From an uncultured Spirochaetales bacterium (lineage in GTDB: Bacteria > Spirochaetota > Spirochaetia > Sphaerochaetales > Sphaerochaetaceae), in the NCBI GenBank assembly GCA_949292445.1, contig CASEZU010000036.1, positions 1 through 21,990 of the forward strand: 21,990 nt of DNA, given 5' to 3'. Position numbers and translations under genes: made by a program. Below the pieces are notes generated by a model. That model did no database searches. It had not been told where the DNA came from and worked only from the letters and a program-made list of their open reading frames with translations. Of this stretch, positions 1 through 8,017 are shown in pieces (position 1 is the stretch's first letter; each line of letters starts with the position of its first letter).

Positions 1-1374
1 CTCCGAAACAATATGTACATAAACTTCTTCGAGATAACGGCCCGGTAGCATAACGGAAGGAGGTGTGTCCACGACAACACTTACAATGCCTTCGTATTCT
101 GAATAACCTGAATCAACTTTGATTATGTCACCACGATTGTCATAAACCGGAGTCCAGCTACTATCAACTTTATCAGCCTGACCGGTATCGTTATTTGCAA
201 CATAGGAAATCTTGATGCTGTTATCTGGAAGCACTCCATTAACAACCGCTTCAGAACCTGAATAAACCTCAGCGCTTGTAGAATTTGTCCCTGTGCATTT
301 CACTGTATTCAGATACACATCAAATCCTATTGAATTAGTCGGGAGCTTAGGATCATTGTAGCCAAGCGATGAATGCACGAACCTGAATCCGTTTGCATCT
401 GAATCGAAAGGATTATTGGAAGCGGAAAGGAACAGATTGTACGACACATTCGCTTCAGTCGACATGAAGTTTATGTCCGCGACATCTATCTCACGACCAT
501 AATTGTTCTTTATATCGATATTGGAAGCAGCCGCACGAGGCCTGACAACGAGGCTTGCAGTCTCCTCAAAGCCGCGGTCATTCGCTGAATAATAGCCACT
601 GAGAGGAATGGTTATCTCATCAATTACTCCGCTTCCATTGCCCCACTCCACGCGCAGTGTGACAAGAGCATTGTAATCATCAGCTTCAACGAGATTATAC
701 TCTCTGCCATCCACCACAAGACGTCCGGTAGATGATACAGGTTCATCGAAAGGTAAAGCGAGAATGACATCAAACCACATAAACTGATAGACAGAAGGCA
801 GGCCAAACGTCATATCGCTCACACCAACATCGTTCGGTTTCACATTCTCAGGAGCATTGACAGTAATTACATTATTCCCATCGCCAAGTATGAATATTGA
901 AGGGGATGGAGAATATGTATTCGGTTCGTACCCTTGATCATTGGTATCATGAGACCAGCTGTATTTGCACACAAGGATTATCTCAAAGGTGCGCCTTGCT
1001 CCTTCGTTTGAAGTCGATTCAAAATAGAATCCATTCGGGCAGGAGGCAGTTACTGTAATTGGAGTATTTATCTGAGAATTATTCCAATTTCCAAAAAGTA
1101 GTGGGCCCTCCCACTCTGATCGCATATTATAAACACCACCAATAGCAATCATCTGACGGTATCCGTAATAATCGTGGGAATCAAAAGTGGCACCGTTATC
1201 ATAATTCCACCATTCATATCCACCCTGAAATTCCTGGCTGGCCATATTAATCCCGAAACCACCGTTTCTCGGGGCTATCGCAGCTCTGAGATCAGAACTT
1301 GGTTCAGGTGCTCCGACAAGTGTCTGGAAATTGAGAAGAAGGATGATAGATAGGAAAAGAGTCAGCTTTCTCAT
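1..1374 (-). CDS. Large secreted protein of the fibre operon, C-terminus cut by the window edge
   Basis: An open frame of 458 codons runs from an ATG at 1374 to the left edge without a stop. The first residues, MRKLTLFLSIILLLNFQTLVGA, cut here to the pattern Lys/Arg then a long hydrophobic run ending Val-Gly-Ala, form a signal peptide, so the product is exported. The mature part is rich in Asn, Ser, Gly and aromatic residues and in alternating beta-strand patterns. The last visible residues, LPGRYLEEVYVHIVSE, resemble the C-terminal strand of the two upstream subunits, so the true end is probably close. The ATG overlaps the upstream stop (ATGA), and GAGGGGG lies 7 bases before it. Lines I counted are about 37-45% GC, lower than the usher gene. 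As the largest and last visible subunit it could be a tip adhesin. That is inference from position; I do not recognise the family. Confidence 0.75.
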   Translation of the reverse strand, partial: MRKLTLFLSIILLLNFQTLVGAPEPSSDLRAAIAPRNGGFGINMASQEFQGGYEWWNYDNGATFDSHDYYGYRQMIAIGGVYNMRSEWEGPLLFGNWNNSQINTPITVTASCPNGFYFESTSNEGARRTFEIILVCKYSWSHDTNDQGYEPNTYSPSPSIFILGDGNNVITVNAPENVKPNDVGVSDMTFGLPSVYQFMWFDVILALPFDEPVSSTGRLVVDGREYNLVEADDYNALVTLRVEWGNGSGVIDEITIPLSGYYSANDRGFEETASLVVRPRAAASNIDIKNNYGREIDVADINFMSTEANVSYNLFLSASNNPFDSDANGFRFVHSSLGYNDPKLPTNSIGFDVYLNTVKCTGTNSTSAEVYSGSEAVVNGVLPDNSIKISYVANNDTGQADKVDSSWTPVYDNRGDIIKVDSGYSEYEGIVSVVVDTPPSVMLPGRYLEEVYVHIVSE

Positions 1375-1997: not shown

Positions 1998-2653
1998 TTC
2001 AGTTCCACCTTCACCTCTGCCAGATATTCATCTGTGCTGACTTCCGAACCACGGTAGACATTGCTGTCAACCATCATCGCAACCGCGCCCCTATGAACCC
2101 ACTCGGGTACAACAGATGACGTCGACTGCTCCACCTTCCACCGCGATGACAGAGTATCCTCGCCTGTCCGGACAATTATTTCTTTGCTGCTTGAGACACT
2201 GCTGATCGTTGCCCCGTTATATGAGCTTGAAGCCGCAGCAGGGAATACATAAGAAAGGTTCCCGAGATCGTATCTTGCAGGGATCATGTCACCGCTCTCA
2301 TCACTCCTCAGCGGTGACACAGTCAATGCTATTTCGTAAGTACCGGCAGTATTGCCGACGATACGGTATGAGAAGACGACACGCTCTGGAAATGTATCTG
2401 ACTGAGGCTTATCAATATCCGAGCTGAGGAGCATCTCCACATGCGGTGACAGGTCTATCACCTCTCCGCCCTGAATGATGGCGAGCGATTCATAGAGCGC
2501 ATCAGTGATGACAATTTTCAGATAGTCTTCCGGACCTGTCTTGTATGCCCTTATGTTAAGTACATTAGGAGCATCTGCCTGAACCTCCTCATCTGCGGCA
2601 GATATGAATGACAGAGGAATGAGCATCAGGAGGAGGATCATCAGCTTTCTCAT
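1985..2653 (-). CDS. Small secreted subunit-like protein (pilin-like), first of two
   Basis: The protein has 222 residues. The signal peptide is MRKLMILLLMLIPLSFISAA, with likely cleavage before ADEEVQ. The mature protein is beta-strand rich, has one Cys near the end (LKCIE) and finishes with STDEYLAEVKVELKC, the same Tyr plus alternating-hydrophobic pattern as the next gene's end. The ATG overlaps the usher stop codon as ATGA. The first 13 bases of this gene (ATGAGAAAGCTGA) are identical to the first 13 of the large gene at 1374, which hints that these subunit genes arose by duplication. Position directly after an usher suggests a structural fibre subunit. That is inference; sequence alone gives no specific family. 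Confidence 0.72.
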   Translation of the reverse strand: MRKLMILLLMLIPLSFISAADEEVQADAPNVLNIRAYKTGPEDYLKIVITDALYESLAIIQGGEVIDLSPHVEMLLSSDIDKPQSDTFPERVVFSYRIVGNTAGTYEIALTVSPLRSDESGDMIPARYDLGNLSYVFPAAASSSYNGATISSVSSSKEIIVRTGEDTLSSRWKVEQSTSSVVPEWVHRGAVAMMVDSNVYRGSEVSTDEYLAEVKVELKCIE

Positions 2654-5600
2654 ACTGCGGCACCTCCATAAAGCATTGTGAAAAAGTCATCCTGCCCCAT
2701 GAACGACACTATCGGCATTGCTGTCTCAAGTGAATAAATTTCCGGCATTATCTCTGCTGCGGTGAATTCACTGCTCCCTAGCATCTGAAGCATGCCGAGA
2801 TTTGATGAGCTGTCCTCAACAGAGAAGCGCACGAGCAGCCATTCATCGCCGTAATTCACATCGAACGCATACTCTCCCGGAGTGAGTGAAGGAGATACGA
2901 AACGTCCGTCGCTGTCGGAGAAAATGTATTCGTCAGTAGCCTCAAGGACGCCATCGTTGATCTTGTAAAGCGGCGACGAACCATTGAGCCATGGCATTCC
3001 GTCAGGAAGGATCACGACACCGGAAGCGGAATAAGTATTCTCAGCGCTGAGCCTCAGCACATAGCCGGTACGTGATGAAGCAGGAATATTCACGGGATAT
3101 GAACCGCTTGCGGAGAATGAGGAATCACCCTGGCTGTAGACTATGAAGCTATCTGAAACAGATGAAGAGGAAAGCCTGTCATACAGGGAAACTCCGAAGA
3201 GTGAACTCACCTCGTCCATTGAGGAACTTCCAGCTTTTCCGATGAATACCTCATTTCCCTCGAGCGCACCTGACTGGGTTATCAGGACATAGTTAGAAGG
3301 AATATGTGAGCTGAAGGCCATGACGCCGTCTGCGAAGACACTTGAAGTGCGCAGCGTGAAATCAGCTCCGAGCCTGGAGAAGACGTCTCCGGAAGATACT
3401 CCGAGATCAACATCGATGAAATCTCCGGAATAGCTGTAATCTGCATCGAGCCTGTAATCACGGATATCAATGAGGTCATATGTATCAGCAGTGACAGATG
3501 CTGAATGCCTGCCGCTGATGTATCTTGCCTCCACAGACGATGATGTGTCGCTTATCACAGCATTGACATTTGTCTTTCCGAAGCGGAACGTTGCTGAGAG
3601 ACGGCCATGCATGAATGGAGAACCTGTTCCCGTGCCGCCTATGTTCATGGATTCTGAGAGCCATATGTCCCTGGATATTGATACATTGGCAGAGGCAGAT
3701 ACAGACCAGCTGCTTCTGTCAATATTATCGGTATAGAGACTGCCGCTTGCTGAAAGCGTCCATCCCATTATTCCCAAACGCCCGGAAACCGAGGCATTCA
3801 GTCCTATCCTGTGCCTGTCTGCCACATTGAGTTCATGGGGAGAGGAATAATTTGCTCCGAGAGATATCGAGCTGAGCGGTACCCATCCCGTCTGAATCTG
3901 ATGTCCGATATTCGCATAGATACCGGGAATATTCCATGTCCCGTCAGCATCCGTCTTTTCCGTCACATTGAATCCATATCGCGTCGTACCGATCACATTC
4001 GCATGAGTGAATTCCATCGCGAGCTTCATGTTAGGACGGAAACCTGCAGCCTCTGAGGGGCTGTTCTGCAGGGCCAGTGTCGTATCCATCGTCAGGTTTG
4101 ATGTAAGGCCCGTTCTCAGATAAGAGGAGAGAACAAGATCACGGAGATCATACTCTATGCTCCTGCCATTCCAGAGAGGTATCCTGAATGCTGCCGCTGC
4201 CTTTGCGGATGACGAATTCACAAGACGCCGGCCTGTGACCAGTGAGGCACCGTAATAAACTTCCCCCGGTGCAAGAAGCGATGAAGAGTAAAGGATATCG
4301 AGATCAATCTCCTCGGTCTCGGATCCATCCAGAGGGCTGATCCTTATAGTGATCCTGTTCGCTCCGGAATAAAGCACGAAATCGCGAAGGCGGTATGTTC
4401 CGACATCAAGTGTGCGGCGAAATATCTCCCTCCTCTCATTGAGAATCTGAACCTCAGATGGTTTGTCGATCACAAGGAGCTGCTCATGCTGGCTGGGCCG
4501 CCTGTATCCTTCCGGTGCATAGGAATAGCTTCTGTCGAAACGCACACCTATGGAAGTTCCGCGGGGATTGAGAAGATCGGAAGAGACATTGCCCCATGTA
4601 AGGCGCATAAGCGCTTCCGGTATGTCATAACGGAATCTGTAGGAACCAATGGCAAACCGGAAATAATCAATTCCGAAATTCATGTAATAGTTGAAATCAA
4701 GATAGAGGTCATACAGACGGGCCTCATTGGAAGATGAGAAAGTGAAATCGAGCCCGTCGAGAGGTCTGGCTGACATGAAATCAGTCATACGGCCGGAAAG
4801 GGAATAGGATGATGCAAGGGTGAAAACAGCAGGTTCTATATCCATTCCATCTGATATCGGGCGAGAACGCCTCCTGACACCGGACGAACCGCTTATGCTG
4901 AGAATCTGCACGGGCATGTCCCCAGGATCGAATGACAGTCCGACCTTATAATCCACGCTGTCGAAGGAAACGCCAATGCCACACTCTTCCAGATAAGACA
5001 GCAGAACAGCAGCACCGGCATGAGTGAAGATCCTGTCGAATGCCTCATCCGTGATCGTATCGGAAAGATAATCTCCAAGTTCCGCTACAGAAAGAGAGGG
5101 CTCTCCATCCTGAACATATACCGTTATGGGACCTGTATAATTCCCATTGATCGAGAGATCCATGTAGTACGTTCCATCCTCAAGCTCGAGCTCATCCTCG
5201 CCTGCGATGTAGAATGTGGCCCAGAAATCCGCCTCTTCCTGAGTCATGCCTGAGAAGAAGCTGTCTGCGGAAAGTTCTTCTGTTTCAGGCTCTGCAGGAA
5301 CAGGCTCGATTTTATCTTCCTCAGGTGGCAGGATGATTGACTTCTCATCGCGCGGCTGCAGCTCTATGACTGTCACATCCTCAGGAATTGAGACTGTCTC
5401 TGACAGCGCATCAGGAGCTTCCGGCACAGCAGGCTGGCTCTTGCCGCCTTTGAGACTGATTACCGTCTCTGTCTCCACACCGTAAACCGTGAAGAACAAG
5501 TCGGGAGCAGAAGGGATAGAGAACGGCTCAGCTTCTTCATAAGTCTCCTTCAACTGTTTGGTATGAGGCTTTTCTGCTGTGGGGGTGATTTCTGTCTCTG

Positions 5601-5994
5601 CAATGTCTTCGAAGGCCACTATCTCCGTCGGCCCATCCGCTCCGCCTATTAATGGAAGAACATCTGCCTGCTCCTCCCTAACAGGTGAAGTTTCTCCATC
5701 CTCATCTGAGTCGCTCAGGAAGAGGATGTATGCTATCCCGCCAAGGAAGAAGACGAGAACGCCGAGCGAGAAGACAAGCAGAGCCGTTCTCTTCGTGTTA
5801 TACGTACTGCCTGAAAGAGAGACATTCATCAGTACGGATGACATGAGGAGAATGACATAGCCTAAGAACACAGCAAGGCCCTGCCCTAAGTTCTTCTGGA
5901 ACAGGGCAAGAACTGCTGTAAGGCCCGCAGTCGAGGCAGATAATGAGATGATGAGGATACGCCGGAGTTTACTCCGTCTTTCAGACGCAGACAT
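2650..5994 (-). CDS. Outer-membrane usher-like protein with an added membrane-spanning N-terminus
   Basis: At 1114 residues this is longer than typical ushers (about 750-900). Residues 265-365 look like an usher N-terminal domain, ending in GVSFDSVDYKVGLSFDPGDM. Residues 380-500 and about 570-960 alternate like barrel strands. Residues 505-570, with LLVIDKPSEVQILNERRE and VGTYRLRDFVLYSGANRI, match the family's plug region. About 990-1070 resembles a small C-terminal beta domain (SLTPGEYAFDVNYG). Known ushers form the outer-membrane pore that receives chaperone-subunit complexes and secretes the fibre. Before the usher part lie three hydrophobic segments (about 13-33, 37-57, 69-92) and an acidic, Pro-rich linker of about 160 residues, which is unusual because ushers normally start with a cleaved signal peptide. 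GGAGA lies about 9 bases before the ATG. The broken chaperone ends 24 bases upstream, and the first subunit gene overlaps the stop. Confidence 0.8.
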   Translation of the reverse strand: MSASERRSKLRRILIISLSASTAGLTAVLALFQKNLGQGLAVFLGYVILLMSSVLMNVSLSGSTYNTKRTALLVFSLGVLVFFLGGIAYILFLSDSDEDGETSPVREEQADVLPLIGGADGPTEIVAFEDIAETEITPTAEKPHTKQLKETYEEAEPFSIPSAPDLFFTVYGVETETVISLKGGKSQPAVPEAPDALSETVSIPEDVTVIELQPRDEKSIILPPEEDKIEPVPAEPETEELSADSFFSGMTQEEADFWATFYIAGEDELELEDGTYYMDLSINGNYTGPITVYVQDGEPSLSVAELGDYLSDTITDEAFDRIFTHAGAAVLLSYLEECGIGVSFDSVDYKVGLSFDPGDMPVQILSISGSSGVRRRSRPISDGMDIEPAVFTLASSYSLSGRMTDFMSARPLDGLDFTFSSSNEARLYDLYLDFNYYMNFGIDYFRFAIGSYRFRYDIPEALMRLTWGNVSSDLLNPRGTSIGVRFDRSYSYAPEGYRRPSQHEQLLVIDKPSEVQILNERREIFRRTLDVGTYRLRDFVLYSGANRITIRISPLDGSETEEIDLDILYSSSLLAPGEVYYGASLVTGRRLVNSSSAKAAAAFRIPLWNGRSIEYDLRDLVLSSYLRTGLTSNLTMDTTLALQNSPSEAAGFRPNMKLAMEFTHANVIGTTRYGFNVTEKTDADGTWNIPGIYANIGHQIQTGWVPLSSISLGANYSSPHELNVADRHRIGLNASVSGRLGIMGWTLSASGSLYTDNIDRSSWSVSASANVSISRDIWLSESMNIGGTGTGSPFMHGRLSATFRFGKTNVNAVISDTSSSVEARYISGRHSASVTADTYDLIDIRDYRLDADYSYSGDFIDVDLGVSSGDVFSRLGADFTLRTSSVFADGVMAFSSHIPSNYVLITQSGALEGNEVFIGKAGSSSMDEVSSLFGVSLYDRLSSSSVSDSFIVYSQGDSSFSASGSYPVNIPASSRTGYVLRLSAENTYSASGVVILPDGMPWLNGSSPLYKINDGVLEATDEYIFSDSDGRFVSPSLTPGEYAFDVNYGDEWLLVRFSVEDSSSNLGMLQMLGSSEFTAAEIMPEIYSLETAMPIVSFMGQDDFFTMLYGGAAV

Positions 5995-6018: not shown

Positions 6019-6752
6019 TTAAGCTGAATACTCGTAGTCGTAGCTCACCGAAGCCGTTATCGTATCGGTGCCGGCAAGAACGGCAGGCATGTCGATAATT
6101 GTCCTCAGACGCGAATCAGCAAGAAGGTTCTGCCCGCTGACCGCTTCCAGTTCCTCTGCAGTGAGACTGTACAAACTCCCGTCATTTCCGGAAAGAGTCA
6201 CCGCGATGTCGTTGAGCATCTGGTGTACGCTTCCCGTGTTCTCCAGGACAATCTCGAGCCTCCCATCATCTGTGGAAGAAACTGTCGGAGTGACATTCTC
6301 CACAACCCTTGACGGGCGCACATAGGCACTTGTGGAGTACACGAAGAGGAAGGAGATCATCTGTCCCGCCTCTTCCTCCTGCGCACCGCGCGGCATCGGA
6401 ATCTGCTCTGAGATTATTCTGAATGAAAGCTCCCTTGTGACAGTCTGCGGCCAGCGGTACTGGACACGCACAAGCTGCGTGGATCGGGCCGTATGATCAT
6501 ACGGCTGGGCTGGATGGAGAAATAAGCTGATCCATCCTGATTATTCTCATTGCCGTCGATATCAATGATCCTCTGCTACGCCCTCACTTAGATGGCAATC
6601 GGAGCATCGGAATCGTTGACAATGGTATAGACCTTGGCGCTTCCGGCGCCAGTCGGGTCATAAGTTACATTCAGCGGTGACAGCTGATAAGCCATCAGCG
6701 CGAATGGCAGAAGCAGCAGCACAAGAACTGCCGCCGCACGCTTAGAAAACAT
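6019..6752 (-). pseudogene. Broken PapD-like periplasmic pilus chaperone
   Basis: From an ATG at 6752 (GGGAGA upstream) the frame encodes a signal peptide, MFSKRAAAVLVLLLLPFALM, then AYQLSPLNVTYDPTGAGSA and VYTIVNDSDAPIAI, the start of a PapD-type first domain. It then meets TAA (codon 55, 6590-6588) and TAG (codon 59, 6578-6576). The same frame continues as IDIDGNENNQDGSAYFSIQP and RMIIRPD, then shifts near 6483. The next frame continues as STQLVRVQYRWPQTVTRELS and FRIISEQIPMP, the strongest chaperone signature, to TAA at 6019. The length is 734 bp; restoring one base gives 245 codons, normal for the family. Chaperones of this type carry fibre subunits to the usher, as the gene order here suggests. 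Apart from three lesions within about 110 bp the gene looks intact, so the damage is recent or an assembly error. A GTG at 6471 opens the last 150 codons but lacks the signal peptide. Confidence 0.82.
6488..6505. repeat. 18-bp perfect palindrome inside the chaperone pseudogene
   Basis: GCCGTATGATCATACGGC is its own reverse complement over all 18 bases. It lies only a few bases from the inferred frameshift near 6483. It codes for part of RMIIRP in the original frame. Whether it is a protein site, a mutation hotspot or chance is unknown. Confidence 0.7.
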
Positions 6753-6824
6753 GCACGTCTCTCCCTTACAGGAGCTTTCGCCCCAAAGACATGGCTTGCT
6801 CTAAACGCAGATAAGTATCCTTTT

Positions 6825-6852
6825 AAGATACCCCCCCCCTGCTCATTTTCAA
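6825..6852 (-). promoter_or_regulatory. Putative fibre-operon promoter with poly-G spacer
   Basis: On the minus strand TTGAAA (6852-6847; 5/6 to the consensus -35) is followed by a 16-bp spacer and TATCTT (6830-6825; 4/6 to the -10). Nine of the 16 spacer bases are the G run. One extra G would give the optimal 17-bp spacing. The asd promoter in this window is TTGAAA-17-TATCCT, which supports this reading. The expected transcript starts about 65 bases before the chaperone ATG. Confidence 0.55.
6831..6839 (-). repeat. Homopolymeric tract of nine G (minus strand)
   Basis: Nine consecutive C are seen on the plus strand, so nine G on the transcribed orientation of the fibre operon. It is the longest homopolymer I noticed in the backbone part of the window. 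Such tracts change length by slipped-strand mispairing, and this one lies wholly between the proposed -35 and -10 boxes. Confidence 0.9.
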
Positions 6853-7030
6853 AGGTTTCCGGAACTCCCGATTCCATCCGCCTCAAGCAGGACCAGAGCA
6901 TACTGGGAAGAGGAAGGAGAACAAGTGCACATATCTGCGCTTACCGACCTTCCTTCTGCAAACTGGACACCCCTTCCAGCTAACAGAATCATTGTACGAC
7001 TGCACCTTATACAAGTAAAGCCTTTATGGC

Positions 7031-7060
7031 AAGCGGTTTTCCATGAAAACTGCTTTTTAT
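7031..7060. terminator. Hairpin followed by T-run on the plus strand
   Basis: AAGCGGTTTTC and GAAAACTGCTT pair as an 11-bp stem with one G-U pair and a 3-base loop, followed by a T-run on the plus strand. The neighbouring genes read on the minus strand, where no T-run follows. It may end plus-strand antisense transcription or only protect the 3' end of the WYL mRNA. Low confidence. Confidence 0.3.
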
Positions 7061-7078
7061 CCGATGAATACGGATATT

Positions 7079-8017
7079 TCATTGCAGATCATCACTTTCC
7101 GCCCTTCCAGCCATTCTGGATACAGTGTTCCAGTATTCCCTGCAGAAACTCTCCGGAGCGACAGGTTCGGCCTCAGAGCCGAATGACAGGAGTCTCGCAA
7201 GCAGTTCAACCGGGCTCGCTGCCGGTATTGAAAGCTCATAGCTGCCGTCTATCCATCGTCCTTTCTGCTCAGGATGCCAGACTTCTGAGGAAACCCTTAT
7301 CCCGGCATCTCCTGAGAACCTCATCGTATACCATTCGGGCTCATCAGGGCCGATGAATATGCCGTATGAGGCTTCCAGCAGATTGTCTATTGCCATATTG
7401 GAACTGACCTGACGCTGAGGAGACACCTCAACCTTCTCCGCACGCGAAAGACGGAATGTCCTGATTCCATGACGCCCTCTGTCATAGGCAAGAAGGTACC
7501 AGAACCCCTGGTAATTCACCAGTTTCAGAGGATCGGCATGCCTCTCCTCTGCGGCGGAGTCCGGAGTCTTCCTGTAGACAATGTAGAGGCTGAGGCCCTT
7601 GTCGAAGGCCTCGAATACAGGGGAGAGCCACTTCTCATCTTCACCATGGCTCCGCACCGGAGTGCGGTAATCGATATGGGAGAGAATGCGCCGCATCGAC
7701 TGCGGCAGGGCACTGTCTATCTCATCCTTCCCCACCATGCTCCCGGCCATGGCACCCATGACGGCGAATGAGACAAGCATCTGTTCCCTCCAGCCGGAGA
7801 GGATATCCTCGCCTGCTGCCAGCCGGTAGGCCATCAGCTTCCTGTCGTAGACGATCATCTCAGGATCAGGGAGTATCCTGTAACGCACATATTCAATATC
7901 CCTTCCGGCCTGCCTTGTGGAGATCTCATAGCGGTCGGCGATGTCAGAAAGCCTGATGCTTCCGTTCTCACGCGACAGCTGGTAGAGGATGTCAAAGACA
8001 CGTTCAGTCTGGCTCAT
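7079..8017 (-). CDS. WYL-domain transcriptional regulator (DeoR/YafY type)
   Basis: The protein has 312 residues from the ATG at 8017. The first 60 residues form a winged helix-turn-helix (RVFDILYQLS, IADRYEISTRQAGRDIEYV). Residues about 140-205 form the WYL domain (DPLKLVNYQGFWYLLAYDRG, then RTFRLSRAEKVEV), and a WCX-like C-terminal region follows. Such regulators bind DNA, with the WYL domain thought to sense a ligand. The frame opens at 8083, but that extension would translate through the pckG terminator hairpin (8053-8072), so I prefer 8017, where the usual MSQTERVFDILY begins. No strong ribosome site is visible; GATAAT lies 6 bases before the ATG. The gene ends about 225 bp upstream of the fibre-operon promoter and may regulate it. 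This is inference from position only. Confidence 0.85.
   Translation of the reverse strand: MSQTERVFDILYQLSRENGSIRLSDIADRYEISTRQAGRDIEYVRYRILPDPEMIVYDRKLMAYRLAAGEDILSGWREQMLVSFAVMGAMAGSMVGKDEIDSALPQSMRRILSHIDYRTPVRSHGEDEKWLSPVFEAFDKGLSLYIVYRKTPDSAAEERHADPLKLVNYQGFWYLLAYDRGRHGIRTFRLSRAEKVEVSPQRQVSSNMAIDNLLEASYGIFIGPDEPEWYTMRFSGDAGIRVSSEVWHPEQKGRWIDGSYELSIPAASPVELLARLLSFGSEAEPVAPESFCREYWNTVSRMAGRAESDDLQ

Follow-up and report, generated by a model that had tools for sequence, protein, structure and literature searches.

A run of nine G residues upstream of a chaperone-usher–type operon in an uncultured spirochaete appears, on balance, to be the slippage-variable strand of a structured leader RNA of about 230 nt that tunes translation, and not a promoter element alone; we put the probability of this reading at roughly 0.56. 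Comparison with related genomes supports the tract itself, its conservation, length differences between species, co-varying stems in the leader, and promoter-like sites farther upstream. Here, "the window" means the whole 21,990-nucleotide stretch of DNA that was analysed; all of the features described below lie on its minus strand.

A G9 tract precedes a chaperone-usher–type operon

The tract (G9, read as C9 on the plus strand) occupies positions 6831 to 6839. It is the sole run of at least six C or G residues in the 21,990-base window and also its longest homopolymer; from the composition of the window, runs of nine or more are expected 0.06 times for C and 0.02 times for G. An earlier note had described the tract as the spacer of a promoter, and the sequence elements that it reported are present exactly as described: TTGAAA, a 16-nt spacer containing the G9 tract (ATGAGCAGGGGGGGGG), and TATCTT extend from 6852 to 6825. 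This pair matches the consensus at 9 of 12 positions, and four sites of this quality occur in 1.3 kb versus a shuffle mean of 1.1. In the window, TATCTT, the −10 element of that proposal, is located within the 5′ arm of a 7-bp hairpin with the loop AAA (6815 to 6831).

The first gene of the operon, encoding a PapD-like chaperone (6019 to 6752), begins about 80 nt 3′ of the tract and is followed by an open usher-like gene of 1114 codons (2650 to 5994), two genes of 222 and 208 codons without a Pfam family (1371 to 2653), and a fifth gene with a signal-peptide-like start, also without a Pfam family, that runs off the window (1 to 1374). The gene order of the operon is identical in locus L001, from an uncultured Spirochaetaceae metagenome-assembled genome, including the two genes that follow the usher. 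The L001 chaperone matches PapD_N (PF00345) above the cut-off (E 1e-7). The usher match to PF00577 is weak and below the cut-off, with E values of 0.016 in L001 and 1.6e-5 in the homologue P0091; precomputed annotation assigns PF00577 to 5 of 112 usher homologues. For the usher of the window itself, no Pfam family matched. With a PapD-type chaperone adjoining an usher, the operon looks to be of the chaperone-usher type, in agreement with the surface-fibre assignment made earlier.

A feature absent from the earlier note is that the chaperone gene of the window is broken, carrying two in-frame stops (6590-6588 and 6578-6576) and a frame change at about 6500-6468, while the usher and the leader parts are intact. 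A protein search with the open downstream piece of the chaperone returned as its top match an identical 125-residue protein, which is probably the window's own (its cluster holds three sequences from five contigs); the next matches, among the best 120 of 231, were at most 78% identical and mostly full-length. Since the cluster contains the identical fragment and the relatives are mostly full-length, assemblies of the window's species probably carry the broken form, with intact copies in relatives. The retention of all leader parts despite the broken chaperone would fit a recent loss.

The tract is conserved within one clade and varies in length

Of 139 genomes from one spirochaete family, 105 contain a relative of the usher. 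One stretch from each of these 105 genomes was compared (L001 and L032-L136; 106 loci, with genome G009 represented twice), and a chaperone gene lay upstream of the usher in 100 of the 106 loci; five of the other six are at contig ends and L061 is not. Eight of the 100 chaperone loci have less than 500 nt of upstream sequence. Apart from the window, 29 of the 100 relatives' loci have a run of at least eight G residues 5′ of the chaperone gene. The distance from tract to chaperone start was 66-178 nt, falling within 66-93 nt in 25 of these 30 loci. All 30 tracts consist of G on the sense strand, and no run of at least eight C residues was found upstream of the chaperone in the 100 relatives' loci or the window. 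In a phylogeny of 99 chaperones, from which one short row and the broken gene of the window were excluded, one clade of 38 rows contains all 29 rows with the tract, including 23 of 23 rows of an inner clade; none of the 61 other rows has it. Outside the inner clade, three sister pairs contain one member without the full run, as in L059 (GGGTGGG) versus L060 (G8).

In an outer group (L050, L052, L057, L058, and L060), the tract lies 108-178 nt upstream and in other surroundings. L050, L052, L057, and L058 carry TTATGACATAA upstream of or near the G run, and TACT follows the run in L057 and L060.

Tract lengths over the 30 loci were G8 in five, G9 in 11, G10 in eight, G11 in five, and G12 in one. 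Within the inner clade, tract length differs between the members of each of the nine sister pairs, a count to be read alongside the spread of lengths, which makes most random pairs differ too. The lengths derive from assembled genomes, one per species, in which a one-base error in a run is possible. The closest comparison is between L042 (G8) and L046 (G11), whose flanks are 96% alike over 301 columns (six mismatches and two gaps, with the tract set equal); a three-base difference is harder to explain as an assembly error than a one-base difference. Tract length in related genomes is hence not uniform, ranging between species from G8 to G12. The earlier proposal that the operon is slippage-regulated gains support from a conserved and length-variable tract, and its promoter-spacer part is weakened by the results below.

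No genome-wide excess of G runs is claimed: 34 genomes contain 9-77 overlapping G8 matches each, and in G009, 35 overlapping matches correspond to 22 runs by hand count, with about 30 runs expected from a rough hand calculation. We also sampled runs of at least eight G residues elsewhere by taking the first listed tract of each of 30 genomes (L137-L166, tract near position 1501). In nine of the 30 (L138, L141, L143, L149, L152, L153, L160, L164, and L165), a lipoprotein-like start follows the tract by 10-42 nt on the sense strand; such starts were also seen on the antisense side in L142 and L153 using the same script and in L158 by eye. Slippage may control a broader set of surface genes in these genomes.

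The tract probably lies inside a structured leader RNA

The region between the predicted transcript start and the chaperone gene is predicted to form a structured leader RNA of about 231 nt (6753 to 6983), as judged from consensus folds and partner-swap tests, in which the pairing of each leader's own strands is compared with that of strands exchanged between species. Its parts, in the 5′ to 3′ direction, are a 5′ hairpin with its loop around AAGGGGTGT (H0; 6961 to 6981), the 5′ strand of a long-range stem P1 (TAAGCGCAGATA; 6932 to 6943), a pyrimidine strand (TCTCCTTCCTCTTCCC; 6905 to 6920) that the consensus folds pair with the tract (P2) and that might instead pair with the Shine–Dalgarno (SD) sequence, the tract itself, the 3′ strand of P1 (TATCTGCGTTTA; 6802 to 6813), and a hairpin around the SD sequence (CATGTC...AAGGGAG...GACGTG; 6754 to 6793).

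Alignment of 12 leaders with MAFFT followed by RNAalifold, with no structure given, recovered P1, P2, and the SD hairpin, with P1 (TAAGCGC... pairing with ...GCGTTTA) spanning the tract. P2 and the SD hairpin were recovered a second time from an alignment of 14 sequences, where six pairs of the SD hairpin have changes in both partners; P1 was not called in this fold, in which three rows (L037, L039, and L044) are shifted. Both sets of leaders were chosen by eye for common P1 letters. In the swap test over 25 loci, own P1 strands paired with a summed energy of −407 versus −344 kcal/mol, and 1 of 20,000 swaps was as good. None of 20,000 swaps was as good for H0 (10 leaders with the loop motif) or for the inner arms of the SD hairpin (11 leaders), whereas control region pairs gave 1014, 4392, and 6002, and 4829 and 6823, of 20,000. 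The P1 and start-region tests omitted the outer group of five loci, L054 was dropped by hand from the H0 test, and the SD test used 11 of 13 leaders with the motif (L035 and L136 were too short). Ten hand-aligned leaders, omitting L037, L039, L044, and L136, displayed three P1 positions with changes on both sides and one position with a G-U pair in seven of the 10, as in RNA. By eye, unrelated letters in L038, L042, L046, L048, and L087 (GATGAGAC with GTTTCATC or GTCTCATC) can form the same long-range stem. Since the sequences on either side of the tract form a stem that co-varies and contains a G-U pair, the tract itself probably lies inside the transcribed leader.

The H0 loop AAGGGGTGT is present in seven of the 10 leaders on the co-varying stem (the window, L033, L035, L036, L037, L039, L041, L043, L045, and L062 make up this set), and it resembles a protein- or RNA-binding site.

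We also considered a known riboswitch or leader family. A search of Rfam 15 with window positions 6500-7300 gave four matches, all below gathering scores and to unrelated families, and the loci of 10 relatives (143,573 bases) gave none, so this candidate was set aside. Searched against 38 genomes, a covariance model of the 3′ half of the leader found 13 places with E < 0.001. All lie at this operon, and 11 are rows used to build the model. Four further matches had E values of 0.07-0.09, two at this operon and two elsewhere. With 109 candidates scored per genome, no strong second copy of the leader was found elsewhere in the 38 genomes. A limited search of the open-access literature found no prior description of this leader, which may still have been published.

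Promoter-like sites upstream of the tract are better supported than sites using it as a spacer

The predicted main promoter of the window is TTTACT-17-TACAAT at 6991 to 7019, which matches the consensus at 9 of 12 positions (p 0.03 versus shuffles) and would place the transcript start at about 6984. To compare such sites across species, we scored the 25 loci in which the tract lies within 100 nt of the gene, using hand-entered sigma-70-like weight matrices; L050, L052, L057, L058, and L060 were omitted from this set and their promoters inspected by eye. The best promoter 5′ of the tract beat shuffles (p < 0.05) in 11 of the 25 loci (Fisher 2e-10), with the −10 element of the best sites ending 75-167 nt before the tract. 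Sites using the tract as spacer beat shuffles at the same threshold in six of the 25, the window included (Fisher 4e-4), and the best of them vary in their hexamers, with spacings of 15-19. Raw mean scores (11.3 upstream and 4.1 for tract-spacer sites) cannot be compared directly: the upstream search covered far more candidate positions, a difference for which the shuffles account. In the window itself, the tract-spacer site (11.8, p 0.01) and the upstream site (11.1, p 0.03) score about equally, and the L001 tract-spacer site scores 11.2 (p 0.01). With two sites of about equal score, the one described in the earlier note may be a second promoter, in the window and a few relatives, while across the set the upstream promoter is the better supported of the two. 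The promoter-spacer proposal thus survives in part: tract-spacer sites exceed chance as a group, but upstream promoters are better supported and the flanks of the tract co-vary as a stem.

Pairing of the tract within the leader

In both consensus folds, the pyrimidine strand stands opposite the tract (P2). A script placed this strand 15-99 nt upstream of the tract in 25 loci; the three 99-nt picks (L042, L046, and L048) are clearly off, yet they were kept in the counts. Over the 30 loci, pairing of the tract with the upstream region exceeded that of dinucleotide shuffles (Fisher 7e-7), six loci being individually significant, and its pairing with the downstream region showed no excess over shuffles (p 0.69, 30 loci). 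In the window alone, the tract is predicted to pair downstream (0.53) more than upstream (0.29). The P2 swap test gave 10,860 of 20,000 swaps as good; P2 cannot co-vary because one of its strands is a homopolymer. Pairing of the pyrimidine strand with the SD sequence was matched by 75 of 20,000 swaps in one test (30 loci) and by 2752 of 20,000 in another (25 loci), so that the first test speaks for such pairing and the second does not.

Two further lines of argument were tried and given up. Masking of the start codon by the 3′ strand of P1 was attractive by eye in several leaders and was not significant in the swap test (1778 of 20,000). Folding of the natural pair L042 (G8) and L046 (G11) revealed no length effect, with predicted openness of 0.01 and 0.01 at the start codon and 0.58 and 0.59 at the SD sequence, and the thermodynamics of natural leaders are not used here as evidence for such an effect.

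Proposed mechanism and alternative explanations

The mechanism that we consider most likely is a competition between leader forms tuned by tract length. Transcription would start about 145 nt upstream of the tract, and the leader would fold into the 5′ hairpin, the long-range stem P1, and the hairpin holding the SD sequence. P1 would bring the upstream pyrimidine strand opposite the tract to form P2, whose G-C and G-U pairs would tolerate shifts in register. Changes in the number of G residues would arise by slippage during replication, and we expect them to occur within a species as well. An altered number would shift P2 and P1, and hence the balance between an open and a masked ribosome-binding region. 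The predicted result is graded, rheostat-like translation of the chaperone and perhaps of the operon, the direction and size of the length effect being conjectural.

Control of transcription by the tract is an unlikely alternative, in which the G run would set the −35/−10 distance and slippage would alter transcription, alone or beside the upstream promoter. Good tract-spacer sites in the window and L001 (p 0.01 each), the excess over shuffles as a group, and a precedent in porA (available text of PMC3639595) and in tprL of another spirochaete (available text of PMC7864442) speak for it. Against this, tract-spacer sites in 19 of 25 loci fail to beat shuffles (p < 0.05), the hexamers and spacings of the best sites vary, upstream promoters are better supported, and the flanks co-vary as a stem across the tract. 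By analogy with Helicobacter pylori, the tract could also be the landing site in trans of a C/U-rich small RNA resembling RepG, with its length setting repression or activation. The layout matches that of the tlpB leader, where, according to the available text of PMC8295292, a variable G run in the 5′ leader confers length-dependent control, but the leaders studied here tend to hold their own pyrimidine partner, and we regard a trans-acting RNA as improbable.

The least probable of the explanations weighed gives the G run a fixed, structural role in the leader, as either a helix strand or a protein site, with a length that drifts but carries no regulatory meaning. The equal predicted openness in the natural G8/G11 pair is in line with it. 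A helix, however, needs no uninterrupted homopolymer, yet all 23 inner-clade rows keep one, and much of the remaining leader changes while the homopolymer stays. We retain competition between leader forms, tuned by tract length, as the preferred reading.

Relation to known systems and significance

Among known systems, the layout most resembles those of tlpB and espR. In H. pylori, RepG uses its C/U-rich loop to bind the variable G run of the tlpB leader, resulting in graded control (PMC8295292, as far as the available text describes it). Both the tlpB-hp0102/RepG system and the leader described here would have a homopolymeric, length-variable G run in the 5′ leader, a C/U-rich pairing strand, and graded rather than on/off control, the last shown there and proposed here; unlike in H. 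pylori, where the partner is a separate small RNA, the leader here would supply its own pyrimidine strand, together with a long-range stem and an SD hairpin. In the Mycobacterium tuberculosis espR 5′UTR, which likewise has a G homopolymer in the leader, a variant with one extra G is predicted to fold differently and reportedly shows higher translational efficiency in a reporter (PMC11898584, available text). That is a variant of one species, whereas the tract described here is clade-wide and flanked by co-varying stems. Clade-wide conservation, a pairing partner carried by the leader itself, and the long-range stem appear to set the present leader apart from both, judging from what these sources make available. 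Neisseria meningitidis porA (PMC3639595) and Treponema pallidum tprL (PMC7864442) share with it a variable-length poly-G run upstream of a surface-protein gene; according to the accessible parts of these reports, the run lies within the promoter, whereas here it lies within the predicted transcript.

More tentatively, the leader may represent a new class of leader RNA in which slippage is the input and the poly-G run competes in cis for a pyrimidine strand able to mask the SD sequence. Such a leader would combine a heritable rheostat, the tract length, with a fast sensor, formed by the 5′ hairpin and the long-range stem, and would be kept clade-wide though the surrounding leader has been replaced.

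The best-known homopolymer switches come from single pathogens and act on a promoter spacer or a reading frame. In fim2 and fim3 of Bordetella, as in the operon described here, a homopolymer lies upstream of a fimbrial gene, and it acts there by changing promoter spacing. In the spirochaetes compared here, a G run appears to be kept in a leader RNA over about 30 mostly uncultured genomes, with its length left free, and natural length variants exist that are ready for reporter testing. If tract length tunes translation, this leader would enable post-transcriptional phase variation of a surface fibre across a whole clade.
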